Shown one piece after another: positions 10,302 through 30,413 of a stretch of DNA of 30,413 bases; the stretch's first letter is position 1, and every line of letters starts with the position of its first letter. The DNA is from a virus. The stretch is from positions 1 to 30,413 of IMG/VR virus record IMGVR_UViG_3300011013_000053, one strand, 5' to 3'. The translations under genes were made by a program, and so were the position numbers. The notes beneath the pieces were generated by a model that did not search any database, was not told the DNA's origin, and saw only the letters and a list, made by a program, of their open reading frames with translations.

Positions 10302-10331
10302 ATTATAGCACATTTAGCCTTCTGTGTCCAA
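10302..10331 (-). promoter_or_regulatory. Promoter, leaderless-type, for 9726-10295
   Basis: TTGGAC (10326-10331), an 18-nt spacer ending TGTGC, TATAAT (10302-10307), then six nt and the ATG. The -35 lies inside the 3' end of the terminase ATPase gene. Confidence 0.75.
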
Positions 10332-14484: not shown

Positions 14485-15243
14485 GTGGCTCGATTAAGTA
14501 AGGACATCGACCTCTGGGTCAAGTGGGATAAAACTGCTCTTGAGCGCAAGCGTTCTGAAATCGGTGGAAGGGAATTTGACCGAGGTTGGAGACAACGAGC
14601 TATCTCAGCCGACGACATGCTTATCCAGCCCGCTCACGTGGACGCCTGCAAGAACTTCGATGCAGAGCTACTCTACCCCGGCGACCCAGACTGTGAGATA
14701 TACAGCAAGGGCAAGTGGTCTACCTTCTTCGGAATTGACCTCGCAATCGCAGGCACCGAGCGCGGGGGTGACTACTTCGTCATTACGGTCATCGCCGTGG
14801 AACGCCCCAGCTTCAAGCGGCACATCGTAGGCGCGTACCGACAGCGAGGGCTGACCTTCAAGTCCCAGCTAGAGATGGTAGAGCAGTACGATGCGGCCTT
14901 CAACCCGACGCTTGTCTGCGTAGAGAACGTCGCCTATCAGGATGCGTTCGTTCAGGAGCTACAGAGGACGACCCCCATCCCCGTCCACCCGTTCGCTACC
15001 TCAGCTATCAACAAGCACAGCCTTGAGAGCGGCCTCCCCCGGCTGGCCGTGGAAATTGAGCAAGCCCGCTGGAGCATCCCGTGGGCTGAGGGCAAGACTA
15101 GAGACACGATGAGGATACTCACCGATGAGATGGTCAACTACGGCATCGCCCGGCACGACGATATGCTGATGAGTCTGTTCTTCGCCCGGATAGCAGCTAC
15201 GCAGGTCAAAGTATCCACCAAGAAGCGCGTGAGAGTGATATAA
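14485..15243 (+). CDS. Terminase large subunit, nuclease half
   Basis: 252 residues from a GTG directly after the HNH stop. The RNase-H-fold nuclease of TerL is clear: catalytic D85 in FFGIDLAIAG, E147 in VCVENVAYQ, and D225/D226 in RHDDMLMSLFFA. Residues about 15-50 (KTALERKRSEIGGREFDRGW, then DDMLIQP) match the linker that normally joins ATPase to nuclease in intact TerL. No Walker motifs are present, so this is only the C-terminal half; the ATPase half is on the other strand at 10314-12230. It would cut concatemeric DNA during packaging. The portal gene follows after 61 bp, the usual order. Confidence 0.92.
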   Translation: MARLSKDIDLWVKWDKTALERKRSEIGGREFDRGWRQRAISADDMLIQPAHVDACKNFDAELLYPGDPDCEIYSKGKWSTFFGIDLAIAGTERGGDYFVITVIAVERPSFKRHIVGAYRQRGLTFKSQLEMVEQYDAAFNPTLVCVENVAYQDAFVQELQRTTPIPVHPFATSAINKHSLESGLPRLAVEIEQARWSIPWAEGKTRDTMRILTDEMVNYGIARHDDMLMSLFFARIAATQVKVSTKKRVRVI

Positions 15244-15304: not shown

Positions 15305-16708
15305 ATGGCGTTTATCGACCGGATAAAGAAGGCAACGGGCATAGGACTAGCAGAGAGAAGCATAACCTCTATCGACACTGAGGAGAAAGCCTCGGCTGCT
15401 GCACCTCTTATCCACGAGGATACGAACCACGGAGCCAGCAATATCTTCCAGCCACCCTCCTCAGGACAGGGATATGGTGACCTAGGCATCCAAGGCGACC
15501 AGAGTCACACCGACATGCTCGGGCAATACGCTCGCAGCCTCTGGGTTTACATCGCCATCAACCGCATCACGAACGCCTTGAATCAGATTTCCCTAAGAGT
15601 AGTAGACAAGCGCAAGAAAGGGAAAGCCAACGACGAGGTCAAAATAGGCCAAGGACTCGTTAAGCTCCTTGAGCAGCCCAACCCTCACACTACCCGCGTC
15701 GAGTTTCTTGAGACCATCATCCAGCACCTCTTACTTACGGGCAACGCCTTCATCGAGAAAGCCGAGACCGATAGCCGAGGCCGACCCAAAGAGCTCTACA
15801 TCCTCAACCCCAAGAACATGGTCGTCGTGCCTGACCGCAAGCACTTCATCAAGGGCTACCGTTACGTAGTCAACGACAAGACCATCTCCTTCCCGAAGCA
15901 GAGCATCATCCACATCAAGCTGCCCGACCCCCGCGGAGAGAGCAGATACGGCCTGTCACCTATACAAGCAGCCCGTAGCATGATTAACACTGACCACCAA
16001 GCAAGAAGCTGGAACACGTCGTACTTCAACAACGCGACGTGGCCGTCCGGTATCATCACCTCAGAGGAGGCAATGAGCGAGACCGAGTTCAGGCGAATGA
16101 AACGCGAGCTACGCCAGAACTACGAGGGCACCAGCAAGGTTGGTAAGGTATTGGTCTTAGAGGGAGGTTTGAACTGGCAACAGACGACCCCGAACCCCAA
16201 AGACCTCGACTGGCTGAACACCCTGAAGAATGCACGCGAAGAGATACTGTCTCTGTTTGGCGTACCCCCCTCAATCGCAGGCGTGTTCAACCAAGAGTCC
16301 AGCAGCGGAAGAAGTGCTGGCGTTAGAGACCAGAGCATGCAGTTCTGGACTAATACTGTCAACCCTCTCCTAGAGCGCGTGTTGGTTAGACTCAATTTGG
16401 AGTTGGCTGACCTGTTCAGTGAGAACTACGAGATAGTAGGTGACACCGACAAGATTCCTGCCCTCAAGGATACTGTGGAGATGCAGTTGGGTAAGGCCGA
16501 GGCTTTCAAGACGCTGGTAGACGCTGGCTGGCCGCCCAACGATGCGCTGGCTGAGTTCTACCCCTCAGTGAAACCCTTTGAACACGGAGACAACCCCCTG
16601 CCTGCGCTCAACTTCAAAGGTGAGGTCGATGCTGCCGCCGAGACTGCCGCTAATGTTGCGGCTGCTGCGACTGAGAAGCCTAAGAAGGACGCTAATGGAA
16701 ACAAGTAG
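15305..16708 (+). CDS. HK97-family portal protein
   Basis: 467 residues, normal for the family. Portal rings sit at one head vertex and pass DNA. Family features include YARSLWVYIAINRITNALNQ (about 75-94), the LLEQPNPHTTRVEFLETI block, GNAFIEK, the LYILNPKNMVVVPD strand set, RYGLSPIQAARSMI and LFGVPPSIAGVF near residue 320. The C-terminus is Ala/Lys-rich. GGAGG lies upstream of the ATG with a rather long spacer. The gene lies right after the TerL nuclease half and overlaps the next gene by 14 nt. Confidence 0.95.
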   Translation: MAFIDRIKKATGIGLAERSITSIDTEEKASAAAPLIHEDTNHGASNIFQPPSSGQGYGDLGIQGDQSHTDMLGQYARSLWVYIAINRITNALNQISLRVVDKRKKGKANDEVKIGQGLVKLLEQPNPHTTRVEFLETIIQHLLLTGNAFIEKAETDSRGRPKELYILNPKNMVVVPDRKHFIKGYRYVVNDKTISFPKQSIIHIKLPDPRGESRYGLSPIQAARSMINTDHQARSWNTSYFNNATWPSGIITSEEAMSETEFRRMKRELRQNYEGTSKVGKVLVLEGGLNWQQTTPNPKDLDWLNTLKNAREEILSLFGVPPSIAGVFNQESSSGRSAGVRDQSMQFWTNTVNPLLERVLVRLNLELADLFSENYEIVGDTDKIPALKDTVEMQLGKAEAFKTLVDAGWPPNDALAEFYPSVKPFEHGDNPLPALNFKGEVDAAAETAANVAAAATEKPKKDANGNK

Positions 16709-17234
16709 TGTCCTCATCCTTGCGATAGCGGGAGTAATTCTTAAAGAACTCATCTCTACCTTCTGGGGTAATAGGGACAGGAATAGCAAAGCCCAGTATG
16801 AGAAGCTCATCAAGGGCTGTGACACTATCCTCAAACAGGTTACAACTAACGCCGAGCAGGTTAAAGCTGCCCAAAACGCCCTCATCAGTATCACCCAGAA
16901 CCAAGTGACGGAAGCCCGTAGTAGCGCAGAATGTCAGGTGAAGATAACTGAGATTCACACCGCTACCGCCAAGATAGCGAAGTTAGAGGCAGACACCCGC
17001 ACTCTCCGTGCCTCTGTGTACGAGACACTGGAACTGAGCAAAGAGCTACTCACAATGCACAAGAAGGTAGACAACGACGGCATAGAGGTGTGGTATTCTG
17101 CTCCCTACTACACCATCCACGAAAAGAGCATCGCAGCATTGAAAGAGTGCATAAAAGACCTTGACGGCAAGGTAGAGCAGATAGAACGACAAGTGGCAAT
17201 CCTCACTCAGCAATACCGAAAGTCCAAGAAGTAG
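16695..17234 (+). CDS. N-terminally anchored coiled-coil protein
   Basis: 179 residues from the ATG at 16695, where AGAAGGA lies 5 nt upstream. The longer frame from 16578 runs through portal sequence and is rejected. A single hydrophobic segment (residues about 4-20, SSVLILAIAGVILKELI) is followed by a long helical, coiled-coil-like region (about 30-175, many Lys/Glu/Gln/Ile) with a short break near WYSAPYYTIHE. Position between portal and prohead protease is odd for a membrane protein. It could be a scaffold-like, injection or membrane factor. No family is recognised. Confidence 0.65.
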   Translation: METSSVLILAIAGVILKELISTFWGNRDRNSKAQYEKLIKGCDTILKQVTTNAEQVKAAQNALISITQNQVTEARSSAECQVKITEIHTATAKIAKLEADTRTLRASVYETLELSKELLTMHKKVDNDGIEVWYSAPYYTIHEKSIAALKECIKDLDGKVEQIERQVAILTQQYRKSKK

Positions 17235-17260
17235 GGAAATGCAAAAACTGCACTTTTCTG

Positions 17261-17269
17261 TGCTATAAT
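17261..17269 (+). promoter_or_regulatory. Extended -10 promoter before prohead protease
   Basis: TGC-TATAAT. The 18 nt upstream, AAAAACTGCACTTTTCTG, closely resemble those before the capsid promoter at 18425. Confidence 0.7.
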
Positions 17270-17304
17270 AATAGTACAGGCCAATGGCCAAGGAGGATTT
17301 TAGA

Positions 17305-18282
17305 ATGGTAGACTTTGAGACTAAAGCAGGGAAGATTATGTCGATTGGCGACGTAACCATCAAATCTTCCAAGGACGGCAAACGACTTATTAAGGGCCTA
17401 GCTAACGCGAACACGGTTGACAGAAGCAACCAACGCATCGAGCCTACGGCCTTCGCCGCGAGCATGACTCGCTTCATGTCCAACCCGGTTATGTTCCTTA
17501 ACCACTCGTGGAACATCCCGGTAGGTAAGGTAGTAGACTTCTCTATCACACCCGAAGGACTGGAGATAACCGGCGAGATAGGAGAGGGTTGGGCAGAAGC
17601 CGACCTGACATGGTCAATGATAGAGGGCGGTGCCATTCGCGCCTTCTCAGTTGGCCTTCGCCCAGAAGAGATTGAAGAGGACGACAAGGGTGTCGAAATC
17701 ATCACCTCGGCTGAGCTGCTAGAGGTCTCGGTTGTGGGAATCCCCATGAACGCCGAGAGCCTGTTTGACATCGCTGGAGACGGTAGCCTGAAAGGCATCC
17801 GTGTCGTTGTTGACGAAAAGGAGATGACCTACGAAGAGCTTTGCAAGAGCAATGAGCCTGCGAAGATTGACATGGTCGTGACCGAAGAAGCTGCGGAAGC
17901 AGTAGAGGAGAAATCTGTGGAAACTACAGAAGAGACTCTCGAAGTTATCGAAGACGAAGTCGAAGTCAAAGTCGAAGAGACCGAGGAAGTTGAGCTTAAG
18001 GAAGAGGAGACCGAAGAGGTCGAGTTGGAGCTTAAGGAAGAGACTACCGAAGTTGAGCTAGACAGCGATGAGATAGAGTTGAAGGAAGAAGTAGACACTG
18101 ACGCCCTTTTGGCCAAACAGGAAGTCATGGTAGGCCTCGTACAAGAAGCCACTGACAAACTGTCCAGCCTGAACGACGAAGTGGAGACCCTGAAGGCCGA
18201 GAATCTCAACCTTCAAGAGGCACTCAAAACCTTCATCAGCGATTCGATAGCCTCGGCATCTAAGTCACTATTCAGGCGATAG
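17305..18282 (+). CDS. Prohead protease (S78-like) with acidic scaffold-like tail
   Basis: 325 residues from the ATG at 17305, which has GGAGG 8 nt upstream; the ATG at 17284 lies before that site and is rejected. Residues 1-155 form an HK97-type prohead protease: GLANANTVDRSNQRI, catalytic H67 in MFLNHSWNIPVG, S115 in IRAFSVGLRP, and the SAELLEVSVVGIPMNAESL block with E140. Residues about 193-275 are an extremely Glu/Val-rich stretch with repeated EEVEL and KEET units, followed by a coiled coil. The tail probably acts as a scaffold removed during maturation. Capsid protein follows, as usual. Confidence 0.9.
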   Translation: MVDFETKAGKIMSIGDVTIKSSKDGKRLIKGLANANTVDRSNQRIEPTAFAASMTRFMSNPVMFLNHSWNIPVGKVVDFSITPEGLEITGEIGEGWAEADLTWSMIEGGAIRAFSVGLRPEEIEEDDKGVEIITSAELLEVSVVGIPMNAESLFDIAGDGSLKGIRVVVDEKEMTYEELCKSNEPAKIDMVVTEEAAEAVEEKSVETTEETLEVIEDEVEVKVEETEEVELKEEETEEVELELKEETTEVELDSDEIELKEEVDTDALLAKQEVMVGLVQEATDKLSSLNDEVETLKAENLNLQEALKTFISDSIASASKSLFRR

Positions 18283-18326
18283 AATAAATCTGTACATTTT
18301 TGTACGGTTCCTGATAATTGTCTGAC

Positions 18327-18356
18327 ATTCCATGAGATTCCATGACATTCCATGAG
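18327..18356. repeat. Three 10-bp-phased ATTCCATGA repeats
   Basis: ATTCCATGA occurs at 18327, 18337 and 18347, exactly 10 bp apart, so the copies lie on one face of the helix. A small inverted repeat GTACA-TTTT-TGTAC lies at 18292-18305. Both are in the 219-bp gap before the capsid gene. A regulator-binding site is possible. Nothing in the gap looks like a gene. Confidence 0.7.
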
Positions 18357-18424
18357 AAGCAGGGGAGCTGTTCTTACTCGACGAGAGTCCTAAATAAGGT
18401 AGTTGTAAAAAACGCTATTTTCTA

Positions 18425-18433
18425 TGCTACAAT
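18425..18433 (+). promoter_or_regulatory. Extended -10 promoter before major capsid gene
   Basis: TGC-TACAAT, preceded by AAAAAACGCTATTTTCTA and followed by GAACGTATAGG. The leader to the ATG is 68 nt and ends with AGGAGA. Confidence 0.7.
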
Positions 18434-18501
18434 GAACGTATAGGACATTCGTCCTTGGTTTGTTTGATTGACAAATCTAATTCAAAGGAGAATTATCTAA
18501 A

Positions 18502-19962
18502 ATGGATACAGTAGATAAGTCTGACGACGTGCAAGCGACTGACGACAAAATCGAAGTTGACGTCAAATCTGGTGACACCTTCTCTGAGTTGGCCAAGGAA
18601 GTGAAAGCACTTCGTGAAGCCGCTGAGAGCGCTGATGCCCGTGCGAAAGAGACTTCGGAGTACAAAGAAAAGACTGATGCCATGACTTCTGAGATTGAGG
18701 CTCTGCGCAAGCAGTTGACTCGCGAGACCAAGACCGCCCGTCAGGGTGAGTTCGAGGTCACAGACTCGGATGTCAATATTCCGTCTTACACTGGCAAGCA
18801 GCTCGATAGGCTCTTCACACTCAAGGCTCAGGCCGGAAGTGACGTGGAGCGTATGCAAGAGGGCAACGACATGCTTTACATAGCCAACACGATTCTCGGT
18901 GGAAATGCGATGAAGCATGCCGAAATCGCTGACTATGTGGGCGAGCAGTACCCTGAGCTGGCGAAAGCTATGGATACCGGAGACAGCACTCAGGACGTTA
19001 CGACGTCTACAGGCTGGATTCCCACTGGCTTTTCAGCCAGTATGGTGGAAGCCGTGAGGTTGCAGCTTAACGTTGCTAACCTGCATGGTCGTTTCAGCAT
19101 GCCCACGAACCCGTACAAGCTGCCCATCGAAGGTGCTGACATCAACGCCTACGTTGTGAGCGAAGCGACTACGGACATCGCAGACCACACTGAGTACGTG
19201 ACTGCCCAGACATCCGACACAAGCAACGTAGTGTTCAACGCCAAGAAGATTGGCGTTCGCACCGTGGTTTCGACCGAGATGACTGAGGATAGTATCGTTC
19301 CTGTGCTGCCTTACGTTCGTGACAAGATAGCGCTGGCGCTGGCCGAAGCTCAGGAGAACGTCCTGATAAACGGTGACCTCCGAACCTCGGGAACCACTAA
19401 CCTTAGTGGTCTCACGTACGCTTCGGGTGGACAGCTTCAGGCGTGGGATGGCTACAGGCGTATGGCTCAGATAAGTGGCACGACCACTGACTTGAGCGGC
19501 ACGTTCTCGTTGGCTAACCTGCGTAAGCTGCGGACTGCAATGGGTAAGTACGGTGTTTCGACCCGTAACTTGGCCTTCGTGGTTGGCATCAACGCATACC
19601 ACACCCTTCTGGACTTAACGGAAGTCGTGACTGTTGATAAAATCGGCAGCCGCGCTACTATCCTCGACGGCCAGATGGGCAGCATCGACGGCATCCCCAT
19701 TCTCATCTCGGAATTCGTTAGCGAAGACTTGGATGCGGTTGGTGAGTCTGAAGGTGGTGGGGGTGGAACCACAGAGATTCTGTGTGTCCGCACCGACGCG
19801 ATGCGCTTCGGCGATAGGCGTGGCATCACGCTGAAGAGTCGTGAACAGATAGAAACCGACCAAAATGTGGTGGTGGCTTTACAGCGCCTCGACTTTAAGG
19901 CCGTTCAGAGCACTAGTGATTCGATTGTGTCGGCTGGTGTTGGAGTTGCTCTGAAGGCGTAA
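18502..19962 (+). CDS. HK97-fold major capsid protein
   Basis: 486 residues. Residues about 1-115 form a coiled-coil delta-domain-like region (FSELAKEVKALREAAESADA), likely removed by the protease. The rest follows the HK97 capsid order: GWIPTGFSASMVEAVRLQL, the N-arm and E-loop strands (NPYKLPIEG through VVFNAKKIGVRTVVSTEMTED), the spine helix YVRDKIALALAEAQENVLING, then the P-domain with LRKLRTAMGKYG, AFVVGINAYHTLLDL, GSIDGIPILISEFV, and RGITLKSREQIETDQNVVVA near the end. A Gly run (SEGGGGGTTE) marks a surface loop. Shine-Dalgarno AGGAGA precedes the ATG, and a terminator follows. Confidence 0.93.
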   Translation: MDTVDKSDDVQATDDKIEVDVKSGDTFSELAKEVKALREAAESADARAKETSEYKEKTDAMTSEIEALRKQLTRETKTARQGEFEVTDSDVNIPSYTGKQLDRLFTLKAQAGSDVERMQEGNDMLYIANTILGGNAMKHAEIADYVGEQYPELAKAMDTGDSTQDVTTSTGWIPTGFSASMVEAVRLQLNVANLHGRFSMPTNPYKLPIEGADINAYVVSEATTDIADHTEYVTAQTSDTSNVVFNAKKIGVRTVVSTEMTEDSIVPVLPYVRDKIALALAEAQENVLINGDLRTSGTTNLSGLTYASGGQLQAWDGYRRMAQISGTTTDLSGTFSLANLRKLRTAMGKYGVSTRNLAFVVGINAYHTLLDLTEVVTVDKIGSRATILDGQMGSIDGIPILISEFVSEDLDAVGESEGGGGGTTEILCVRTDAMRFGDRRGITLKSREQIETDQNVVVALQRLDFKAVQSTSDSIVSAGVGVALKA

Positions 19963-19990
19963 GCTAGAAGAACAATGTTCTATTACCTCG

Positions 19991-20022
19991 GCCCCTCGGA
20001 GAGCAATCTCCGGGGGGCTTTT
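19991..20022 (+). terminator. Intrinsic terminator after capsid gene
   Basis: GCCCCTCGGAGA and TCTCCGGGGGGC form a 12-bp stem (one G-U pair) around a GCAA tetraloop, followed by TTTT. It sits 28 nt after the capsid stop and before a new promoter. Confidence 0.9.
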
Positions 20023-20123: not shown

Positions 20124-20732
20124 ATGGCTAATAATGCCCCCAGTACACAGTTTATGCAGATACCCACCTCGGGCGCGACCACAACCGTGGACACCCCCGG
20201 CGAGCGTATCGCCATTGTTGGAACCACTCTGGCCACCAACAACGGCACGACCGACACACAAATTACCCCTTGGGATTTCGGCACAGTCGATATCTCAGCA
20301 GGAGCCGCTAACTCAGCGGTCTTCAACCTTATCTGGACGGTCACTGCCGACAACGGCAACACGACCGCTGACAACTTTCGCTTCTGGATGTCCAACGATG
20401 GATTCGCTAGTACGACAGACCTAAAATACGCCTGTCTCTCTGGCCCTGAAATCAACACGACTACAGACTCTAACATCGACGCGGTTTACGTGGCGAGTGC
20501 TACCACTGGTAGTTACACGTACCGAACCTCGAACGACGAAGGTGAAGGCGAACCTACCGTGAACTTGGCTGCCGCAGACGATACTAACAGCTTGTCCCTG
20601 TCCTCAGGTTCGACTGATGGTATCCATATTGCAGCTTACTTTGCGGTGGTTGACGAGGAAAAGACAGGTACTTATCAAGGCACGACGGCTGGTTACGAGC
20701 TACAGTGCAGTTTGAAGTTCGACTTCAGCTAA
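20124..20732 (+). CDS. Putative virion protein, beta-rich
   Basis: 202 residues, with AGGAGAA before the ATG. The composition is Thr/Ser/Ala/Asp-rich with alternating hydrophobic residues, typical of beta-sandwich virion proteins (AIVGTTLATNNGTTDTQI, then FNLIWTVTADNGNTTADNF). Position right after the capsid gene, between its own promoter and a strong hairpin, suggests an abundant head decoration or similar structural protein, but no family is recognised. Confidence 0.65.
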   Translation: MANNAPSTQFMQIPTSGATTTVDTPGERIAIVGTTLATNNGTTDTQITPWDFGTVDISAGAANSAVFNLIWTVTADNGNTTADNFRFWMSNDGFASTTDLKYACLSGPEINTTTDSNIDAVYVASATTGSYTYRTSNDEGEGEPTVNLAAADDTNSLSLSSGSTDGIHIAAYFAVVDEEKTGTYQGTTAGYELQCSLKFDFS

Positions 20733-20779
20733 CCTCGAAATCTACCTTGGGCCTTGGCCTCCAAAAGAGGCGACTGCTC

Positions 20780-20820
20780 TTAGCCCTCCTCTTCCGGTAA
20801 TACCGGGGGAGGGGGGCTAA
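20780..20820 (+). terminator. Long hairpin after 20124 gene
   Basis: TTAGCCCTCCTCTTCCGGT (20780-20798) pairs with ACCGGGGGAGGGGGGCTAA (20802-20820) over 19 positions, three of them G-U, with a 3-nt loop. All three departures from Watson-Crick pairing are G-U on the plus-strand RNA, which indicates an RNA structure read in that direction. Only a weak T-run (ATTCT) follows. It is probably a terminator or mRNA-end structure. Confidence 0.7.
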
Positions 20821-20836
20821 ATTCTACGTAAAACCG

Positions 20837-20845
20837 TGCTATACT
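20837..20845 (+). promoter_or_regulatory. Extended -10 promoter before 20878 gene
   Basis: TGC-TATACT preceded by GTAAAACCG, 32 nt before the ATG, with AAGGAGG in between. Confidence 0.65.
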
Positions 20846-20877
20846 GGTAGTACTGACTACATTTAAGGAGGATACCA

Positions 20878-21468
20878 ATGCCGGGGCCAGAGATAAAACA
20901 AGGTTACATACAGTTTCTTTACATTCATCGCAATGGAGACGTCGAGTCTTCTCGTGACTTCCACTGGCGTGACATCGAAATCGAGACCTTGGTTCGTATC
21001 GAGTGTTACTGGCGGCGTGGTTCCTTCGTCCTAGACGTAGACGACCTCCCCCCTGACTTCTTGGAGTTCGTATCCTACCGCTCCTCAGGCACCACCAAGA
21101 TTACGCTGTCGGACGGCAGCTCAGCCATCGTCCCCCTCGACTCAATATCGTTCGGGTACACAAATGGCTCACAGGAGTTTCTTACTGAGTTCCACTATTT
21201 TGATGGAACCATCCTAAAGAACGACCTCGTCAACGTACATGTATCTGACCCCAACATAAACCTAACCCACTTTCACCCTCGCTCCGTTCGTCCCATACCT
21301 GACATCGTCAAAGGTAGAGGCCCGTTTCAATCATGGGTGCCGGGTCAGGGTAAGCCCCCGTTCCCAGTCACACGCCGCCAAGCAGGGCCGAGACATCCGA
21401 GAAGCAAAGCAGGCGGGCCACAAGGAAGACCAGACATTCAGGCCAAGCCCCAGCGCAGGAGAACCTAA
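20878..21468 (+). CDS. Hypothetical late protein with basic tail
   Basis: 196 residues with a strong GGAGG. The first 130 residues look beta-rich and compact (GYIQFLYIHRNGDVESSRDF, DISFGY-like strands). The last 60 are Pro/Gly/Arg-rich and strongly basic (RRQAGPRHPRSKAGGPQGRP), probably disordered and able to contact nucleic acid or acidic proteins. No domain is recognised. It is the first gene of the transcript leading into the secreted-protein cassette. Confidence 0.65.
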   Translation: MPGPEIKQGYIQFLYIHRNGDVESSRDFHWRDIEIETLVRIECYWRRGSFVLDVDDLPPDFLEFVSYRSSGTTKITLSDGSSAIVPLDSISFGYTNGSQEFLTEFHYFDGTILKNDLVNVHVSDPNINLTHFHPRSVRPIPDIVKGRGPFQSWVPGQGKPPFPVTRRQAGPRHPRSKAGGPQGRPDIQAKPQRRRT

Positions 21469-21471
21469 CAA

Positions 21472-21882
21472 GTGGCTGGTTTCGGCGCAATTACGGTGTC
21501 CAACGACGCTCTTACTGGGAGCGCCACAGCAGACGTAGCAGTACAGGACGGCCCAACCGTAGCAGCATCAGAAACTATGGTGCAGGTTATGTCCACGGCG
21601 TCTGCTGAGAACACCGTCACACAGGCAGGCCAGACCATCACAGCTTCTGCCCTTATCCTTTCAGCAAACAACAACCGCAAGAGCTTCGTTGTCCAGTCCT
21701 TCACTGTCGACGGTACAGGGAACAATGACATTGTTTACATAGGGGATGCCTCGGTTTCGACTACAAACGGGTTAGCCCTACTTGATGGCGACTCCTACAC
21801 GGACGATAGGTGGACTGGCGTAGTTTACGCCGTGACCGCCAGCGGCGAGACCGCTTACGTGCGGTTCTGGGAGCGCGACTAG
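21472..21882 (+). CDS. Small virion-like protein
   Basis: 136 residues from a GTG, with AGGAGA 8 nt upstream, 3 nt after the previous stop. A Thr/Ala-rich N-terminus leads to ILSANNNRKSFVVQSFTVDG, VYIGDASVSTTNGLALLDGD and GVVYAVTASGETAYVRFWERD. This pattern (reply to 'NNNRKS', 'VYIGDASVTTTNG', final 'VRxWE') recurs in small phage structural or head-associated proteins of unknown role. Beta-rich, no signal peptide. The next gene starts 1 nt after its stop. Confidence 0.65.
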   Translation: MAGFGAITVSNDALTGSATADVAVQDGPTVAASETMVQVMSTASAENTVTQAGQTITASALILSANNNRKSFVVQSFTVDGTGNNDIVYIGDASVSTTNGLALLDGDSYTDDRWTGVVYAVTASGETAYVRFWERD

Positions 21883-21883
21883 G

Positions 21884-22288
21884 ATGAAAATATTACTTAG
21901 TATCTTAATGGTGAGTCTCATGGCTGTACCTTCCTATGCGGGATGTATAGACGAGGTTGTCTCCTTAGAGAGAGAGCTGGTTGCTACCAAGCAGTACGTA
22001 GGGGAGATGTCCCTCGTAATGAATGCAGTAGGCGCAGCAGCTTGGGCCAGACGAGCAGACGGCACCTTATGCCGCGACATCCCACCCGAAGCGGCCTGTC
22101 GCAGCGACATGGGTGACTTCCGTTTCCTCCTTGCTTACTACACCCAGATGACAAAACTTCGTGATGCAGTGACTACTGCCTGTGTGGGTGAGCCGAACGC
22201 TAACGTGCGCCTCTTCAGGGACGCCATACTTAATAGCTTAGACATAAATATCGCTAAACTACACGCGATGGAAGACCAACGCAACTAA
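21884..22288 (+). CDS. Secreted helical protein with signal peptide
   Basis: 134 residues. Residues 1-19 form a Sec signal peptide (MKILLSILMVSLMAVPSYA, then GC). Cys right after AG gives a possible lipoprotein-like site, but the lipobox is not convincing. The mature part is helical with four Cys (positions around 21, 63, 72 and 100) that could form disulfides. No family is recognised. First of five consecutive genes with signal peptides. Confidence 0.65.
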   Translation: MKILLSILMVSLMAVPSYAGCIDEVVSLERELVATKQYVGEMSLVMNAVGAAAWARRADGTLCRDIPPEAACRSDMGDFRFLLAYYTQMTKLRDAVTTACVGEPNANVRLFRDAILNSLDINIAKLHAMEDQRN

Positions 22289-22314
22289 TCAAGATTAAGT
22301 AGGAGGGTATAAAG

Positions 22315-23184
22315 ATGCGTAAATCACTACTCCTCGCAGCCACGGTGTTAGTAGTCGTAGGCTCCTTTCTGTCCTCGGACGCGCTCCGAGCGCGCATCTC
22401 TTCGCGTGGCCTCAAGATATTCAGTAACGCTGCATACCAAGGTAAGGCTACCACACTCAACTTTGATGCTAATTACAGCGTAGACTGTGAAGCAGAGAAG
22501 AAGACCTGTCAAGTGGCGCTGGACAACGACGCGTACATAGTAGGCGAGACCGTTCCCTATCTAGCCACAGACCTCCCCATAACAGGCACCGCGTGGAGTC
22601 CCGGCATCGACATCATCCAACTGCTTGACGCACCAGACAGTGCCAATGACCCAGTAAGTAAATCCTACGTTGATGCCTTTGACACCAACGTCCCTCCTCT
22701 CCGCAGGCAGGTAGTACTGTTCGCCAACGTCGATGTCATGTCAGGTGATGGAGTATCTCGGGTTTTTACCTATTCCGCAAGCGATACCTTTGGCCCCATA
22801 ATGAGCACTAGCGTTGGGTTCGACGGTACGTGTCACACCTTCTATGCCCACATAGAAGGTGTCACAGGCGAAGCGGACGAACAGGTATCCATCCAATTCC
22901 GGTTGAACGCACAGACCTCAGACTACGTATTCTCCTGTTACATACAGACGGATACCGATGTTACCTGTACCAACTTAACCGACAACAGCACTTGCACGGC
23001 AGCCAACACACCAGACCACTGCTGCTCCGGCTTAGGAACAGGAGTGTGTGGCACGCTGGCGGTAGCCGCTACTGACACGTTCTACTTTGGCTTCCAGTGT
23101 GATGACCTAGTTGGCACCCCCTGTCCACTGAACGGTTCTGACCCCACTGTAAGTGCAACCCTAGCCTGCACGGAGGATTTCTAA
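22315..23184 (+). CDS. Secreted fibre-like protein, paralog 1
   Basis: 289 residues; GGAGGG precedes the ATG. Signal peptide at about 1-24 (MRKSLLLAATVLVVVGSFLS). Then a module shared with the next two genes: GKATTLNF, CQVALDNDAYIVGET, DLPITGTAW, and APDSANDPVSKSYVDA. The last resembles the 'SANDxxTKSYVD' element of phage tail-fibre and collar proteins. The C-terminal half is Cys-rich and contains CCSGLGTGVC, also found in the 1513-residue protein. Together these suggest an exported, disulfide-bonded surface or fibre protein, which is inference. The stop and next start overlap as TAATG. Confidence 0.65.
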   Translation: MRKSLLLAATVLVVVGSFLSSDALRARISSRGLKIFSNAAYQGKATTLNFDANYSVDCEAEKKTCQVALDNDAYIVGETVPYLATDLPITGTAWSPGIDIIQLLDAPDSANDPVSKSYVDAFDTNVPPLRRQVVLFANVDVMSGDGVSRVFTYSASDTFGPIMSTSVGFDGTCHTFYAHIEGVTGEADEQVSIQFRLNAQTSDYVFSCYIQTDTDVTCTNLTDNSTCTAANTPDHCCSGLGTGVCGTLAVAATDTFYFGFQCDDLVGTPCPLNGSDPTVSATLACTEDF

Positions 23185-23990
23185 TGAAGCAGCTAGGAAG
23201 AGTACTGGCACTATCCTTAGTAGCCTTCTCTATCTCCTACGTCTCAAACGCTGGGCGTGTCGCTACTAGACACGTCTCTGTCCAGAAAGAGGGCGTGACA
23301 GTAGGCAGAGCACGCGTCCTCAACTTGAGTACAGGCTTTACAACCACCTGTGTTGGAGGAGGTAACCCTGAATGTGATATATCCCAAGACGCTAACGTGT
23401 ACGTAGAAGGCGAGACGACACCAGCTACCGCCGCTGACCTTCCTACGTCAGGCTCGTGGACAGTTGACCAAAACAACATACAAATTACGGCTGACCCAGA
23501 TAGTGCTAATGATGTAGTTCGTGCGGGCTACAATCGACAACACCGAAAGAAGATGTTACGATTCTCGACAAACAACCTATCCCTAGCAGACGGCACTCTT
23601 CAGTATTGTAGTATGGCTAGATGCTCCACACTTAGTCCTATCACACGCACTTCGCTCGGGGGGGTAGGGTCGGGTCTGAGCCTGTATTGCGATGAGATAA
23701 ACGTGGAAGTGACAGGCAACCCGGTTGAGGCAGGTAATAACGCAGACGTCACTGTGGGCTTGTGGCGTAATGCATCCTTCACTACGGGCTGCGCGTGTAC
23801 TCTTTTGATTAAAAGTACCACAGGGGCGAGTACATACGCGTGTACCGATACTTGCACTTACTCCTTTAACGAGTCTGACGACTGGGTTTTTAAGGTACAA
23901 TGTGATGGAGCAGGCTGCCCTATATCGGCAGGCTTCGGCGTCAACGTCTCAGGCGCAGCACGCTGCTTCGTAGATGATGGGTACAACTGA
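23184..23990 (+). CDS. Secreted fibre-like protein, paralog 2
   Basis: 268 residues. Signal peptide at about 1-23 (MKQLGRVLALSLVAFSISYV). The shared module follows: VGRARVLNLSTGF, CDISQDANVYVEGETTPATA, ADLPTSGSW, QITADPDSANDVVRAGY. The C-terminal half has about a dozen Cys with DECYS-type spacing (GCACTLL, YACTDTCTY, VQCDGAGCPIS) and ends ARCFVDDGYN. Like its neighbours it appears exported. It overlaps both neighbours by one base (TAATG and TGATG), which favours translational coupling. Function unknown; probably acts with the paralogs as a group. Confidence 0.65.
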   Translation: MKQLGRVLALSLVAFSISYVSNAGRVATRHVSVQKEGVTVGRARVLNLSTGFTTTCVGGGNPECDISQDANVYVEGETTPATAADLPTSGSWTVDQNNIQITADPDSANDVVRAGYNRQHRKKMLRFSTNNLSLADGTLQYCSMARCSTLSPITRTSLGGVGSGLSLYCDEINVEVTGNPVEAGNNADVTVGLWRNASFTTGCACTLLIKSTTGASTYACTDTCTYSFNESDDWVFKVQCDGAGCPISAGFGVNVSGAARCFVDDGYN

Positions 23991-24754
23991 TGGACAGGTT
24001 TTATTTCATAATAGCACTGCTGGCTTTCACAGGTTCTCTGTTTCTGGGTGACAACCTGAAGGCACAGCGCGTACCTCTTCGAGGGGTTGCCATACAAGAC
24101 AACTCCGTATTGAAGGGTAGCGCGACTACCCTCGACTTCGCAAGTGACTTCACGGTGGTCTGCAACTCAGGAGGCCAAGAGTGTGACATCGCACCCCTGT
24201 CCACTGTGTATATGGTTGGAGAACTAACACCTGACACCACAGCGGAGCTACCCACCACTGGAGTATGGGAGATAAATCAAGACACCCTACAGATTAGTGC
24301 TGACCCAGATAGCAACAACGACATAGCGCGCAAGTCATACGCAGACAACGCACAGAGAATGTGGCTAATGGCCAGCTTGTCTCACGACACCACACTGACT
24401 AACGGCACCCACCGCTACTACAATCAGAATGGTGGTTGGGCGTCTAACAATGAGGCAGAGATAGTAACGGCTACCGCCTTTACCTGCGACCATCTCTGGG
24501 TAGACACGATTGGACTTGGCACACCTAACACTGACGAGACTATGGAGATATGGCTGCTGAAGAATGATGTCGCCACCGACTTGACTTGTACCATAGACAC
24601 GAGCGCTGAGGTAGACTGCGACGACGCAGGCTCAGCATCCTTCGTCCTTGGTGACACCTACTCATTTGAAGCAACCTGCGATGGCACTGACTGTCCCCTG
24701 AGTGCTGCATTCGGGCAAAATATGACTATGATAGCGGACTGCTTACTGGATTAG
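23990..24754 (+). CDS. Secreted fibre-like protein, paralog 3
   Basis: 254 residues. Signal peptide at about 1-25 (MDRFYFIIALLAFTGSLFLG). The shared module: RGVAIQDNSVLKGSATTLDF, CDIAPLSTVYMVGELTPDTT, AELPTTGVW, QISADPDSNNDIARKSYADN. The C-terminal part ends with EATCDGTDCPLSAAFGQ, closely matching the VQCDGAGCPISAGFG block of paralog 2. The three genes therefore arose by tandem duplication and divergence. It starts inside the previous stop (TGATG). Confidence 0.65.
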   Translation: MDRFYFIIALLAFTGSLFLGDNLKAQRVPLRGVAIQDNSVLKGSATTLDFASDFTVVCNSGGQECDIAPLSTVYMVGELTPDTTAELPTTGVWEINQDTLQISADPDSNNDIARKSYADNAQRMWLMASLSHDTTLTNGTHRYYNQNGGWASNNEAEIVTATAFTCDHLWVDTIGLGTPNTDETMEIWLLKNDVATDLTCTIDTSAEVDCDDAGSASFVLGDTYSFEATCDGTDCPLSAAFGQNMTMIADCLLD

Positions 24755-24764
24755 AGAGGATAAC

Positions 24765-27700
24765 ATGACGAAAATACTTACAACAATACTAGCTGCCACC
24801 CTCTTATGGGGGGCTCCCGTGGTCGCTGCTGACCGCGAGTATGGTGACTTCCCGTTTACTGATGGGTTTGAGTACTGCTTTCTCGCTGAGGAAGCGGGCT
24901 TATCTCACTGCGAAACTGACGCTACCGTTCGCTGTACACAACGAGGAGGTAGGTGTATCTCATCTGTTTGTACTGACTCGGTTAACGCCGCGTCGTGTAC
25001 TACGGATGCTGACTGCCACCATCCAGAGCTAAACTGTAGTGAGGAGGTACCATCAGGCCAAGCCTGCCTCGAACGTAGGAGCGGTAGCACTGCATGGGAC
25101 GTGCCTATTTATAGCCACATGGCCTCCGGCACTATAACCGCCCAAACCAGTAGCCCAGACGGAACTCCGTTTGCTGGCTTTACCTACCAAGGAGACGGCT
25201 TTGACATTTTCACGACCGGCGTTTGCGACATAAGTCCCGGCAATAATCGGACATATAAATGTTTCGTGGACGCCGATTGTGCCGCGAACTCCGACTGCAC
25301 GGCGTCAGAAACTCCCGCAAAGTGCTGTACCGGCTCAGGAACAGGTACGTGCCTTGGCCCCGGTTACTCGGTTGGCGCTTGTGATGCAGGCACTGACATA
25401 CCCTACAGCCGAGGCTATCCGGGTAGCTCTTGTGCTATGGCCTTCGTCGCTGACGCTAGTCAGACGGAGTGCTCTACCTCCTCAACTTGTGATGGCACTG
25501 CTCCTAATAAGTCATGTTCTAATGACGGAACCTTTTGTAACGACGCGGACGACTGTGACGATTTCTGCACTATTGACGCGGATTGTGCTGTTGCATGCAG
25601 TGGAACAGCCAACGGAGGGGACGCCTACATAGCCCGTGTAGTGGAGGAACGTTCTGCTGTCGTTCACGCAGCTATCGCTATGGATTCTCTTGTGACTAAC
25701 AACGTTACTACCCTTGGACTGAGAAAGCCATTCATGGGTTTCATGGACTCCAATTACGAGAATCAGTGCCACCTACAGGCCGAATTCGTTTCGTGCGACA
25801 TCTATGACGTTGGTAAGAAAGAGTGTACCACAGCACAGTGGAACTACAACGTTTCGCTTTATTACAAAGAGGACAAGTTCAGGTGTGACGCAGGTAGTCG
25901 TAACCCCGACACAGCCTGCGAACCCGACGCGAACAACCATGACGACGACAACTGCGCGGCGACTACTGCTGGCGAGGCTCTATGTTCCTCGGGTGCTATA
26001 GCTGTTGGGCAGGTTGACGCTGGTACGTTCGTTAACATGGCTATCGAGGAAGACCACGGAACCTGCGACGTTACACCCGCTTCTACTAACTGTGGAAACA
26101 CAGAAGCGGGTAAGTGCGACAACGACGTCACTCAGACATGTGCCTCAAACTCTGACTGTGGTCTATGCTCAACTGACAATAGTTGGTGCGCAAACGCCAA
26201 CGACTGTCCACAAGGGTTGCTTATTTGCGGCGCGTGGCTAGACGGGGTTGATATAGGTCATTCTACCTTTCTCGCGGGAGCCTGTACCGAAGACGGCTGG
26301 GCCTGCGGAGACAACGACGACTGTCAGTATATGGGAACGTGTGACGCCAGTGTGTGCACTAACACAGGTGATGCTTGCTCTGTAGACGGCGACTGCGAGT
26401 GGGACGGAAGGTGTAGTAGTTGGACGCTCAACCCTACGTGTCTCGTGCTGGCAGGCGACGACAAGTGTAGCAACAACGGGTCTACCACATGCACGACCGA
26501 CGACGACTGCGACCTTGATTACCCATTCGACGAATCAGCTCAACGCTGTCGTACCTCGGCTGACTGTTCAGGCAGCGACACGTGCGACGTACAGACGTGT
26601 GACACCACGAGTGTGAAGCAACTAGAAGAGACATGGCTTGGTTTTAAGGGGCAAATTACTAACTACGCGTCTATCCCTCCTAGTCAACGAGGTACTGGTG
26701 GTTACTTCGGTATGGTTGCTGATGACTGGATTGGAGTCAAAGGCCCCAACGAAACATCCGCCATTCGTGCCCGCGTAATAACGTGGTTCCCACAGGAAGA
26801 GTTCTTAAACACAGGAAGCGAACAGAATTGGAACCCCAACAGTTGTGCTGGAACCGACCACTGGGAGTGTGTTAGTGACTGGTCATTCGAGTCTGCGACT
26901 ACCGGAGGTAGTACTGTTGATGACAACCTAGGGGGCAACGCCAATAACGAACAAAGCGCGTGGGAGATGGGAGTTGACTGTATTAACGACAAATGTTCCG
27001 TGTCTGGCTTAGTATCTGACATTCACGACACAGCTAACGCATGCTCTCCTACATATAGTTGTTCTGCCGGATTTTGTACACAAACAGGTGCAACCTCAGT
27101 AGCCTGCACACAGAACGAAGACTGTAACGGCGCTGAGTGTCCGCTTGTCGAGTTGTGGTCTACCGACTGTGATGTAGACAACAACCAGTGTACTGCTGCT
27201 AACGTCCCCGCTGCCTGCTGTACTGGCAGCGGCACTGGAACTTGCACCGGCACGTTTGAGTGTAACGAAGGACATTGTAGTGTTGACCGAAACACAACCT
27301 GCACTGTTGATGCCAACTGTTCCTCGTTATCACCCTCGGGACAGGTCTGTGTCTTGACCGTATGTACCCAAGATGCAGACTGCGCGGAAACCATCCACAT
27401 AAACACACCCCTCACTACAACCAGTCTGATGTCTGACTCGACAGAGGGCTGCACAGGAAGCCAAGACCCAGCCGATAACACCGGAGGCACCAAGGGCGTT
27501 GTACCCTACTTGTTTGACGCAGATGGTGGAGCTACCGCAGAAGATTGTAGCGCCGGTACACTGTGCAGTATTGGCACTGACACTATTGTTGTAGGAACCA
27601 ACGTCTGTAGCGACTACGCGGCTGATGGAGAGGCCAGCTTTATCAACGACTGGAACGACCTCGACTGGACTCTCGCTAAACTGAATGACGGTATTGGGAT

Positions 27701-29306
27701 AGGCATACAGTACCAGAATGTCCCCGGCGCTAATAAGATTATTAGGATGGCCAGTAACATGGTTTCCGTACCTGTTAGTCTGCCCCTGAACGCTTGTAAC
27801 CCTTCGTTGCCTGACGTCAACGGTGATGGCCGGATAACCATGTGTGTCACAGGCGATTCGACTTACGCTAGCTCAGAGTTTGAGAGCCAAGTAACCTCTA
27901 AGATATGTAACCCCGACGACGTACTGTTTGCCGCAGCAGGGTCGATTAAGGCTGCTGACGTTACCAAGAACATTACGTATATTATGAATGGCTCCGGTGG
28001 AACTGACGTTGACCCTCTACTAAAAGCTGACGCCCTCCGTGGTTCGGTATGCGATGCCACTGCGGGTACTTGTAGCGGCTGCGACTACACAGTAGTAGGC
28101 ATTGGAATTAACTCCATTCGGTCTAGTATTCGAGGAATAACAGTTTCGCAGGGTTACTGTCACAACCCCGGAGCAACAGACTCGGGAGATGGCTGTACGT
28201 GTCCCTCCTCGTCGGCAGCAGTCAGCACAGCAGATAAGCTAGGCTACTGCACCCAGATACCATCAGGCCAGACGTACAAAACTGGCTTCGCTTTTAAGAC
28301 TGCCTGTAACACAGGAGAATGCACAACCGCTCAATCAGGATTTGCAGGACTGGCATATGAACAGGGCATACCCTTCTGTTTCCCCGGTCGGAGCAAGTGT
28401 ACGGCTGGTGTATGCGAAGAACCACGTGCGATTACCTACTGGGGCAACTTCTCCGAGACTTGTAACGTAACCAACGCCCCTAACGTGTGTGGCGGAGACA
28501 TGACTACTGCATGCACCAGTGACGCCGACTGCTACAGAAACAGCGACTGTGACGGTACGGCTAGTGACTTTAGCTGCTGTACTGGTCTAGGCACCGGTAC
28601 TTGCACAGGGGGTGCCAGCGCCCCCGGTGGAGGTTGTGGCTCTGCGGACTGTGATGCATTCTTTGACTGGTGCGTTCCCGCCTGTGACAACTCCCCTAGT
28701 TGTGGTGGCCTGTGTTTCGACGGAGGCACCCAGAGCCAATCCAGCGTGATATCCTCTCACATACAGATGATTGATGAAGCAGACCACCGCAACCTTTTCC
28801 CCTACTGCGTGAATGACACAGACTGCTCCAACAACGTCTGCACCGACTTTCCTGACATAGCCTGTGACGTCACCGGAGACTGCCCTAACAACTCTGCTTG
28901 TGGTGGTACTAAGATTGGTGGCACATGTGTCGCTAACCAGTGCACGGGTAACGACACGGAACTAATTTTCATGGCACAACCCGCCGGTAACGCCGTCTAC
29001 AACGAGAACAAAGATGACGGGCAGCAGCCCGCCGGAGACAGTGGTTGTTGGTTCGGTTCTTTTGACGAGCTTGACAGTCAAGCAAATGCCATCATCCAAT
29101 TAGCAAAGGACAGAGGCGTACACTGGATTGACCACAACGGGTACGCCCACGAGAACTGCCCCAAGCACCAGAGAGGACGCTGCACCTCAGATGGCATCCA
29201 CTATGACACCGAAGGCTCAGTCATCGCTGCCGAGGTGCTGAGAAACTGCATGGCGAATACATCAGGCACGTCGGGTACTTATTACGACTGTGACTTCACG
29301 CAGTAG
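24765..29306 (+). CDS. Giant secreted Cys-rich protein with SGNH-esterase-like C-terminal region
   Basis: 1513 residues, preceded by GAGAGGA. Signal peptide at 1-21 (MTKILTTILAATLLWGAPVVA). About 125 Cys by hand count, many in C-x(3-8)-D-x-DC repeats such as CTTDADC, CFVDADC and CTQDADC. CCTGSGTGTC-type modules occur at DNA positions 25323, 27216 and 28575. The C-terminal region has SGNH/GDSL-hydrolase marks: block I VTGDSTY (S1032), a possible block III GIGIN (N1116) and block V DGIHYD (D1476, H1479). The spacing is far longer than in ordinary SGNH enzymes, with Cys-rich insertions between III and V. SGNH enzymes remove acetyl or acyl groups from glycans and lipids. It is likely an exported surface- or fibre-associated esterase. 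Confidence 0.75.
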   Translation: MTKILTTILAATLLWGAPVVAADREYGDFPFTDGFEYCFLAEEAGLSHCETDATVRCTQRGGRCISSVCTDSVNAASCTTDADCHHPELNCSEEVPSGQACLERRSGSTAWDVPIYSHMASGTITAQTSSPDGTPFAGFTYQGDGFDIFTTGVCDISPGNNRTYKCFVDADCAANSDCTASETPAKCCTGSGTGTCLGPGYSVGACDAGTDIPYSRGYPGSSCAMAFVADASQTECSTSSTCDGTAPNKSCSNDGTFCNDADDCDDFCTIDADCAVACSGTANGGDAYIARVVEERSAVVHAAIAMDSLVTNNVTTLGLRKPFMGFMDSNYENQCHLQAEFVSCDIYDVGKKECTTAQWNYNVSLYYKEDKFRCDAGSRNPDTACEPDANNHDDDNCAATTAGEALCSSGAIAVGQVDAGTFVNMAIEEDHGTCDVTPASTNCGNTEAGKCDNDVTQTCASNSDCGLCSTDNSWCANANDCPQGLLICGAWLDGVDIGHSTFLAGACTEDGWACGDNDDCQYMGTCDASVCTNTGDACSVDGDCEWDGRCSSWTLNPTCLVLAGDDKCSNNGSTTCTTDDDCDLDYPFDESAQRCRTSADCSGSDTCDVQTCDTTSVKQLEETWLGFKGQITNYASIPPSQRGTGGYFGMVADDWIGVKGPNETSAIRARVITWFPQEEFLNTGSEQNWNPNSCAGTDHWECVSDWSFESATTGGSTVDDNLGGNANNEQSAWEMGVDCINDKCSVSGLVSDIHDTANACSPTYSCSAGFCTQTGATSVACTQNEDCNGAECPLVELWSTDCDVDNNQCTAANVPAACCTGSGTGTCTGTFECNEGHCSVDRNTTCTVDANCSSLSPSGQVCVLTVCTQDADCAETIHINTPLTTTSLMSDSTEGCTGSQDPADNTGGTKGVVPYLFDADGGATAEDCSAGTLCSIGTDTIVVGTNVCSDYAADGEASFINDWNDLDWTLAKLNDGIGIGIQYQNVPGANKIIRMASNMVSVPVSLPLNACNPSLPDVNGDGRITMCVTGDSTYASSEFESQVTSKICNPDDVLFAAAGSIKAADVTKNITYIMNGSGGTDVDPLLKADALRGSVCDATAGTCSGCDYTVVGIGINSIRSSIRGITVSQGYCHNPGATDSGDGCTCPSSSAAVSTADKLGYCTQIPSGQTYKTGFAFKTACNTGECTTAQSGFAGLAYEQGIPFCFPGRSKCTAGVCEEPRAITYWGNFSETCNVTNAPNVCGGDMTTACTSDADCYRNSDCDGTASDFSCCTGLGTGTCTGGASAPGGGCGSADCDAFFDWCVPACDNSPSCGGLCFDGGTQSQSSVISSHIQMIDEADHRNLFPYCVNDTDCSNNVCTDFPDIACDVTGDCPNNSACGGTKIGGTCVANQCTGNDTELIFMAQPAGNAVYNENKDDGQQPAGDSGCWFGSFDELDSQANAIIQLAKDRGVHWIDHNGYAHENCPKHQRGRCTSDGIHYDTEGSVIAAEVLRNCMANTSGTSGTYYDCDFTQ

Positions 29307-29318
29307 GTAATTTAGCGT

Positions 29319-30413
29319 ATGAGCTTGCTTCTCCTCTTTAACGGACTAAAAGCAGCAGTTGTGGTAGCGAGCATTAAGCTCGTTATTAAAGACTCTCGCT
29401 TTGACGTTCTCAACGCCAAGCTCATCATACAGGACGTACTGGCGTCTATCGTCAACTCTAAGCTCGTCATCGAGGACGATAACGTAACCCTAGTTGACCT
29501 CCGGCTCGCTGTGCAGGATAATCTGACAGCTATCCTAGGTGGCAAGGTGGTAGTCTCAGACGCCCTCCAGCCTATCGTTGACGCTAAGCTCCGGCTTAAG
29601 GACGAGCTAACTGCCGTCCTAGACTCCAAGCTAATCACGACAGACGACTCCACAACGGTAGCTGACCTCAAGCTCATTCTACAAGACAACCTGTCCCCTC
29701 TTCTGGACGCCAAGCTCATTACGAAGGACGAACTAACCTCCATCCTCGACAACAAGATAGTCCTGAAAGACGAGGTCAACAACTTACTCGACGCCAAGCT
29801 CATCACGCAGGACAACATAATCAACGTCCTCAACGGCTTGGTAAAGGTGCAAGACTCGTTGGTGCCTACCCCTGACGCTAAGCTAATCGTCGCAGACGCC
29901 ATCAGCACCATCGTTGACACCCAGATACAGGTCGCCGACACTTACAACCCTGCCGCTGACGCTAAGCTGATTGTCCAAGACACAATCCTCAATACTGCGG
30001 ATGTCAAGGTAATCCTCAAAGACGCGCTGACCACCCTTGTCAACCAGAAGCTCATCATCACGGACGACGCAACCAACGTACTAGACTCAAAGCTCATCGT
30101 ACAGGAGAACCTCGTTAGCCTCGCCGACCTGACAGTGATAATCAAGGACACCCTCGACTCCGTCACTGACTTTAAGATGATAGTGCAGGACGCCCTCACA
30201 GCGACAGCCGACATGAAGGCTATTGTGACGGACGACTCCAACACTGTCCTCGACCTTAAACTGGCCGTGCAGGAATTCCTCAGCACCATAGTTGACGCAA
30301 AACTCATCGTACAGGACGACCTCACAACAGTAGCTGACCTCAAGCTCATTGTGCAGGATAGCCTGACCTCGATTGTTGACGGCACGATGACCATCCAAGA
30401 CGCTGCTAGTAAC
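29319..30413 (+). CDS. 14-residue-repeat fibre-like protein (partial, runs off window)
   Basis: 365 codons from the ATG at 29319 with no stop before the window ends. After a 19-residue start (MSLLLLFNGLKAAVVVASI) come 24 consecutive 14-residue units and part of a 25th, with no insertion or deletion. Consensus is about K-L-I-V-Q-D-x-L-T-x-I-V-D-A. Position 6 is Asp in 22 and Glu in 2 of the 24; position 13 is Asp in 19, Asn in 4 and Gly in 1, so acidic residues recur every seven positions. Alternating hydrophobic residues suggest a regular solenoid or fibrous shaft. It has no signal peptide of normal form. Place at the end of the structural region suggests a fibre, not proven. Confidence 0.8.
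   Translation, partial: MSLLLLFNGLKAAVVVASIKLVIKDSRFDVLNAKLIIQDVLASIVNSKLVIEDDNVTLVDLRLAVQDNLTAILGGKVVVSDALQPIVDAKLRLKDELTAVLDSKLITTDDSTTVADLKLILQDNLSPLLDAKLITKDELTSILDNKIVLKDEVNNLLDAKLITQDNIINVLNGLVKVQDSLVPTPDAKLIVADAISTIVDTQIQVADTYNPAADAKLIVQDTILNTADVKVILKDALTTLVNQKLIITDDATNVLDSKLIVQENLVSLADLTVIIKDTLDSVTDFKMIVQDALTATADMKAIVTDDSNTVLDLKLAVQEFLSTIVDAKLIVQDDLTTVADLKLIVQDSLTSIVDGTMTIQDAASN

Follow-up and report, generated by a model that had tools for sequence, protein, structure and literature searches.

Five consecutive genes (E1–E5, positions 21884–29306) next to the head genes of an HK97-type tailed phage encode predicted exported proteins that are rich in cysteine as a group. The window, i.e., the whole stretch of DNA analyzed, is an IMG/VR virus record of 30,413 nt (30.4 kb). 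The explanation that is favored, tentatively and at somewhat less than even confidence, is that the cassette encodes exported, disulfide-stabilized host-recognition proteins that would fold outside the cytoplasm and probably join the virion at lysis. The features that suggest this can be read in the sequences themselves: the signal peptides, the parity of the cysteine counts, the homology to fiber-like proteins, the gene order and a set of catalytic blocks. The features of the locus are as follows.

15305–19962, + strand: portal, prohead protease and major capsid protein (MCP) genes of an HK97-type tailed phage (starts at 15305, 17284 and 18502)
19990–20019, + strand: terminator-like hairpin 3' of the MCP gene; the number of such hairpins is not above chance
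20124–21882, + strand: three small genes without signal peptides (20124, 20878 and 21472), between the MCP gene and the cassette
21884–22288, + strand: E1, 134 aa; signal peptide of about 19 aa (...PSYA|GC); 4 Cys in the mature chain
22315–23184, + strand: E2, 289 aa; signal peptide of 23–26 aa; 12 Cys; fiber-type motif APDSANDPVSKSYVDA; C-terminal Cys-containing domain with one CCSGLGTGVC module
23184–23990, + strand: E3, 268 aa; signal peptide of 23 aa; paralog of E2 and E4; 12 Cys
23990–24754, + strand: E4, 254 aa; signal peptide of 25 aa; 8 Cys
24765–29306, + strand: E5, 1513 aa; signal peptide of 21–22 aa; 126 Cys; many C-x-D-x-D-C-like repeats; three CCTGxGTGTC modules; C-terminal third SGNH-hydrolase-like
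27852–27860, + strand: E5, SGNH block I (GDS), conserved with a relative's protein, L117b
28104–28112, + strand: E5, SGNH block III (G-x-N), conserved with L117b
29190–29201, + strand: E5, SGNH block V (D-x-x-H), conserved with L117b
29319–30413, + strand: repeat protein with KLIVQDxLTxVxDxK units of about 20 residues, directly 3' of E5 and cut at the contig end

The five ORFs were found where the initial annotation had placed them, and they follow one another almost without gaps. E1 starts 2 bases past the stop of its neighbor, and the start codons of E3 and E4 overlap the stop codon of the preceding gene. Shine-Dalgarno-like sites are present immediately 5' of the signal-peptide start in E2, E3 and E5. 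Start sites downstream of the signal peptides, which had been raised as a finding that would count against export, are unsupported because these sites and the stop/start overlaps fit starts at the signal peptides. Downstream of the hairpin at 19990–20019 there is only one weak hairpin on the same strand (25092). A 36-base imperfect palindrome lies within E2 at window positions 22831–22866 and has an 83% match to its own reverse complement. E1–E5 have no significant match in Pfam, PHROGs or NCBIfam, and pattern searches from the single sequences E2 and E5 found no relatives.

Each of the five ORFs opens with a Sec-type signal peptide, and the head genes do not. The N-termini have a positive n-region and a 12-residue hydrophobic core with a mean Kyte-Doolittle value of 2.07–2.88, followed by a cleavage-like (A-x-A-like) site that was placed by rule after residues 19–26. 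By n-region, core and cleavage-like site E1–E5 are predicted substrates of Sec and signal peptidase I. The calls were made with a hydrophobicity rule of our own, which separates signal peptides incompletely from uncleaved anchors; all five products pass it, bearing out the claim of five consecutive Sec signal peptides in a phage structural region. Of 26 other window genes checked, a score above 1.5 is reached only by 2095–2406, far off in the left arm. A flag of the filter on the 29319 repeat protein is judged false because there is no proper c-region and the homolog in relative L117 is without such an N-terminus. A lipoprotein (signal peptidase II) reading was rejected, as there is no lipobox: E1 has Y-A-G-C, and no Cys is close to the site in E2–E5. 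The same filter finds no second transmembrane stretch in E1–E5, and a second membrane anchor was rejected on that ground.

Controls were drawn from IMG/VR and passed through the same filter: 76 loci around distant portals (1064 ORFs) and 78 loci around GDTMTGDL tail fibers (683 ORFs). Signal-like ORFs amount to 1.8% around the portals and 2.9% around the fibers. Runs of at least two signal-like genes occur at 1 of 154 control loci, a count that leaves out L158 and L177, two fiber loci with signal-like fiber N-termini and signal-like neighbors; with these included it is 3 of 156. The run of five signal-peptide genes in the window is not due to chance.

The cassette holds 162 Cys in 2458 aa (6.6%), as compared with 5 in 1819 aa (0.3%) for the head genes and 82 in 6090 aa for the other genes. 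By gene the numbers are 4 in E1 (3.0%), 12 in E2, 12 in E3, 8 in E4 and 126 in E5 (8.3%). The description of most of the products as Cys-rich is fair overall; E1 and E4 are merely moderate. The number of Cys in the mature chain is even in all 11 complete exported chains from the window and relatives L032, L038 and L117 (p = 0.0005 under random parity), a value to be read with cleavage sites placed by rule and with chains of the same lineage that are not fully independent. One further chain, L032a, is cut by the contig end and was left out. Two chains, L038a and L117a, have an odd total that becomes even once the single Cys of the signal peptide is removed. Among non-exported chains parity is unbiased: the window has 9 even and 7 odd counts, and the 68-kb contig of relative L117 has 17 even and 16 odd. 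In unrelated contigs exported chains are even in 22 cases and odd in 6 (p = 0.002), and the remaining chains are 62 even and 49 odd. Even mature counts are what complete disulfide pairing after cleavage predicts. Taken with signal peptides in four genomes, they make export with disulfide formation a well supported prediction.

Relatives of the window were reached through the capsid protein or the portal and comprise L032/L037, L038, L117, L036 and L039. MCP identity to the window is 91% for L032/L037, 55% for L038 and about 53% (best segment) for L117. The L036 contig stops after the portal and that of L039 within the capsid gene. In L032, L038 and L117 the portal, protease and capsid genes are followed, as in the window, by the three small genes and then by signal-peptide genes; L032 and L117 have additional genes inserted. 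The three small genes at 20124, 20878 and 21472 have the same order in these relatives, the third being only positional in L117. A search for the cassette in related contigs, which had been proposed as a check, thus finds signal-peptide proteins at the same site in L032, L038 and L117. The proteins behind the signal peptides differ between the window and the three relatives, and a homolog of E1 was not seen in these.

One inserted gene, L032:8052-9839, separates the capsid gene from the prohead protease gene in this nearest relative and encodes a signal-peptide protein with an HExxHxxG metalloprotease motif and a weak dockerin match. The L117 contig has dockerin-like genes with signal peptides. 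In L036, positions 6612–7875 (- strand) hold small mercury-transport-like genes, judged by eye as a metal-binding-like signal-peptide protein and a membrane protein. The large terminase of the window is split into two genes on opposite strands. The ATPase gene (10314–12230, - strand) carries an intein with Hint and LAGLIDADG parts; the separate nuclease gene (14485–15243, + strand) is adjoined by an HNH gene (14032–14484). L032 and L036 have the ATPase gene on the - strand without insertion and the nuclease gene also on the - strand; the latter has thus been inverted between lineages. The ATPase region of L117 (4489–5593) is apparently interrupted by intein- or homing-endonuclease-like pieces, as judged by eye.

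The sequences behind the signal peptides in the relatives point to fibers. L038a consists of a signal peptide followed by tail-fiber sequence (PHROG tail fiber, E = 2.4e-10). L117a matches no PHROG or Pfam family, and its signal peptide is followed by the shaft motifs ADGGTGA and WAGDNTWDTP, which are fiber-type by eye. L032a has a spike-like start, a weak match to a PHROG tail protein (0.004) and the end GDTMSGDL...AVNKTY. E2, E3 and E4 are paralogs, with identities to E2 of 28% (E3) and 31% (E4), and share the conserved stretch ADPDSANDxxxKSYVD. Their N-termini match that of L038a (E2 4e-6, E3 3e-4, E4 3e-7), and the C-terminus of E4 matches that of L117a (E = 3e-9). On their own they have no significant match to a curated tail fiber family. 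E2–E4 are best read as fibers without a shaft, i.e., an attachment segment plus a head, where the short conserved N-terminal segment could be the attachment domain. Structure models from shallow alignments are poor (mean pLDDT 48 and 29). The weak model of E4 is beta-rich, and a Foldseek search with it returned many trimeric heads of the C1q/TNF type as well as C1q or collagen-repeat proteins of phages, which is no more than a hint of a C1q/TNF-like head.

The likeness to the tail fibers of Caudoviricetes thus lies in the PHROG family of L038a, the shaft motifs of L117a, the N- or C-terminal parts that E2–E4 share with these two, and the K-x-Y-V-D-like motif that E2–E4 carry. The differences are that a signal peptide replaces the usual tail-attachment domain, that the cysteines are predicted to be paired, that E2–E4 are without a shaft and that the genes adjoin the capsid genes. 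Tail fibers usually lie behind the tape measure gene. In the 68-kb contig of L117, the cassette follows the capsid-side genes and precedes the head-tail adaptor gene, with another 9 kb to the tape measure gene; this position would also fit head fibers or non-virion proteins. That the L117 cassette is not behind the tape measure gene argues against the fiber reading, as does the finding that only 2 of 69 GDTMTGDL fibers elsewhere have a signal-like N-terminus. The lack of a curated fiber family for E2–E5 and L117a, the poor structure models and the cytoplasmic assembly of tailed phages count against it as well.

E5 has its closest relative in L117b (6e-7), and the same repeat protein is 3' of both; L117b and L038b are Cys-rich, as is E5. 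The homolog of the repeat protein at 29319–30413 lies at L117:18823-19911, directly after L117b (E = 1e-32). The alignment of E5 with L117b shows SGNH blocks I (GDS), II (G), III (GxN) and V (DxxH) in order, which is shared with the SGNH/GDSL hydrolases, including those of phage tail spikes. In contrast to these, E5 and L117b have large Cys-rich insertions, a signal peptide and family scores below threshold. L117b scores 17.5 bits against Pfam Lipase_GDSL_2 (cut-off 32.9) and E5 has no match; the sole PDB match is a GDSL lipolytic protein at E = 0.55. In a check for the SGNH alpha/beta/alpha fold, the model has a pLDDT of only 29. By its residues E5 looks like an SGNH esterase, and its membership in the family is putative, the scores falling below the cut-offs.

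Besides its single copy in E2 (as CCSGLGTGVC) and the three in E5, the module CTxxxxPxxCCTGxGTGTC is present in another 29 IMG/VR contigs. A signal peptide opens most of the ORFs that contain it, and on several contigs such genes follow one another (L005, L008 and L027). It is also found in metagenome-assembled genomes (MAGs) of Deltaproteobacteria, Binatota, Planctomycetota, Acidobacteria and Nitrospirae, a distribution that gives a weak hint of the host; tRNA genes were of no help in host assignment. The fibers of L158 and L177 with signal-like N-termini, about 2 of 69 sampled, suggest that exported fiber-like proteins recur outside the lineage. In L158 (1090–5476, - strand) two neighboring fiber-like proteins (GDTMTG) have signal-like N-termini and are rich in N-x-T/S; this may be an archaeal virus.

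In the favored explanation the cassette proteins would be made alongside the late genes, sent through Sec, cut by signal peptidase I and oxidized outside the cytoplasm. Export would be needed because the cytoplasm is reducing and would not let the disulfide domains fold. Once the cell lyses, the proteins would mix with the released particles and bind them by the conserved N-terminal segment. E2–E4 would each bring, behind the signal peptide, a possible attachment segment, the K-x-Y-V-D motif and a Cys-paired, beta-rich head, and E5 would be a very large exported Cys-rich chain carrying an SGNH-type esterase domain. The proposed steps up to export are well supported by the sequences. Cleavage, export, oxidation and esterase activity are what these features would predict of the cassette proteins, and joining the virion is the least certain step. 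Tailed phages assemble in the cytoplasm, and we know of none that builds virion parts outside it; in T4, fibers can be added to finished particles in the test tube. That a lineage of tailed dsDNA phages sends virion fibers through the Sec and disulfide machinery of its host, completing its particles outside the cytoplasm, is a possibility to which about a third of our confidence goes.

The receptor-binding virion protein pIII of filamentous phages has a Sec signal peptide and disulfides and is folded outside the cytoplasm. The cassette proteins are predicted from sequence to share these three properties. However, pIII is anchored in the membrane by its C-terminus and enters the particle as this is extruded, whereas here the phage is of the HK97 type and there is no second transmembrane segment. 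No relative of E2, E5, L038a or L117a was found among 50,697 phage records, and the portions consulted of the open-licence literature on signal-peptide phage fibers and structural proteins, and on exported proteins and superinfection exclusion, hold no description of an exported tail fiber in tailed phages. These negatives, from non-exhaustive searches, agree with the initial annotation, which knew of no named system composed in this way. Neither fibers nor SGNH enzymes are new in themselves; what is rated as new is that an HK97-type phage would export them as a cassette.

Of the roles that had been suggested, fibers added outside the cytoplasm fit best because at this locus relatives have tail-fiber-like proteins behind a signal peptide. 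The main rival, though a rather unlikely one, is surface display or superinfection control. Here the exported proteins would stay with the infected cell, where fiber-like domains in the periplasm or at the surface would occupy or mask the receptor and the SGNH esterase would deacylate surface polysaccharide; such display would block superinfection and keep progeny off debris. Signal peptides and disulfides fit an envelope location, fiber-like heads would recognize the phage's own receptor, and the distance of the cassette from the tail-tip genes is in line with a role outside the virion. There is a precedent in lambda Lom, an exported outer-membrane protein whose gene lies between the tail spike and tail fiber genes (PMC12309495), so that a gene lying amid the tail genes of such a phage may encode an exported protein that is not part of the virion. 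Lom is a single outer-membrane beta-barrel and not a fiber, whereas the cassette has five consecutive genes with Cys-rich, fiber-like products. The C-terminal residue, where a Lom-type barrel signal was looked for, is non-aromatic in E3, E4 and E5 and F in E2. Against display, E1–E5 show no lipobox, second transmembrane segment or obvious outer-membrane anchor, L038a and L117a retain long fiber-type shafts that a masking protein would not need, and a place among late head genes is late for exclusion.

It is less probable still, and doubtful, that the proteins are secreted cargo and not fibers, i.e., enzymes and binding proteins whose target is the matrix surrounding the host and which aid progeny in leaving clusters or biofilm. 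The SGNH blocks of E5 and L117b, the L032 signal-peptide protein with HExxHxxG and a weak dockerin match, the dockerin-like genes of L117 and the mostly exported CCTGxGTGTC proteins of bacterial MAGs are in line with this. However, E2–E4, L038a and L117a are fiber-like rather than enzyme-like, and the cassette keeps one site within the structural operon. Quite improbable is a reading of the N-termini as uncleaved hydrophobic anchors or assembly elements of cytoplasmic or membrane-bound proteins. The hydrophobicity rule cannot tell every anchor from a signal peptide, but the cores are short and precede A-x-A-like sites, the Cys content is high, two chains reach an even Cys number only without the signal peptide, and the other head genes have no such N-termini. 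A fusion of bacterial secretion genes to a phage contig, suggested by bacterial MAGs that also contain the CCTGxGTGTC module and repeats rich in Cys, is scarcely credible, being refuted by the same gene order in contigs of other metagenomes and by L117b and the repeat protein inside a 68-kb phage contig with adaptor and tape measure genes.

The assembly of tailed phages is taught as entirely cytoplasmic. Signal-peptide, fiber-like proteins with complete predicted Cys pairing at one locus, across about 50% capsid divergence, make a two-compartment assembly directly testable. Wherever the proteins act, such genes escape annotation, as the five of the window match no curated family. If the proteins stay on the host, they would represent a large family of exported, envelope-remodeling phage proteins. 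If the two-compartment route is true, part of virion assembly would fall at or after lysis.
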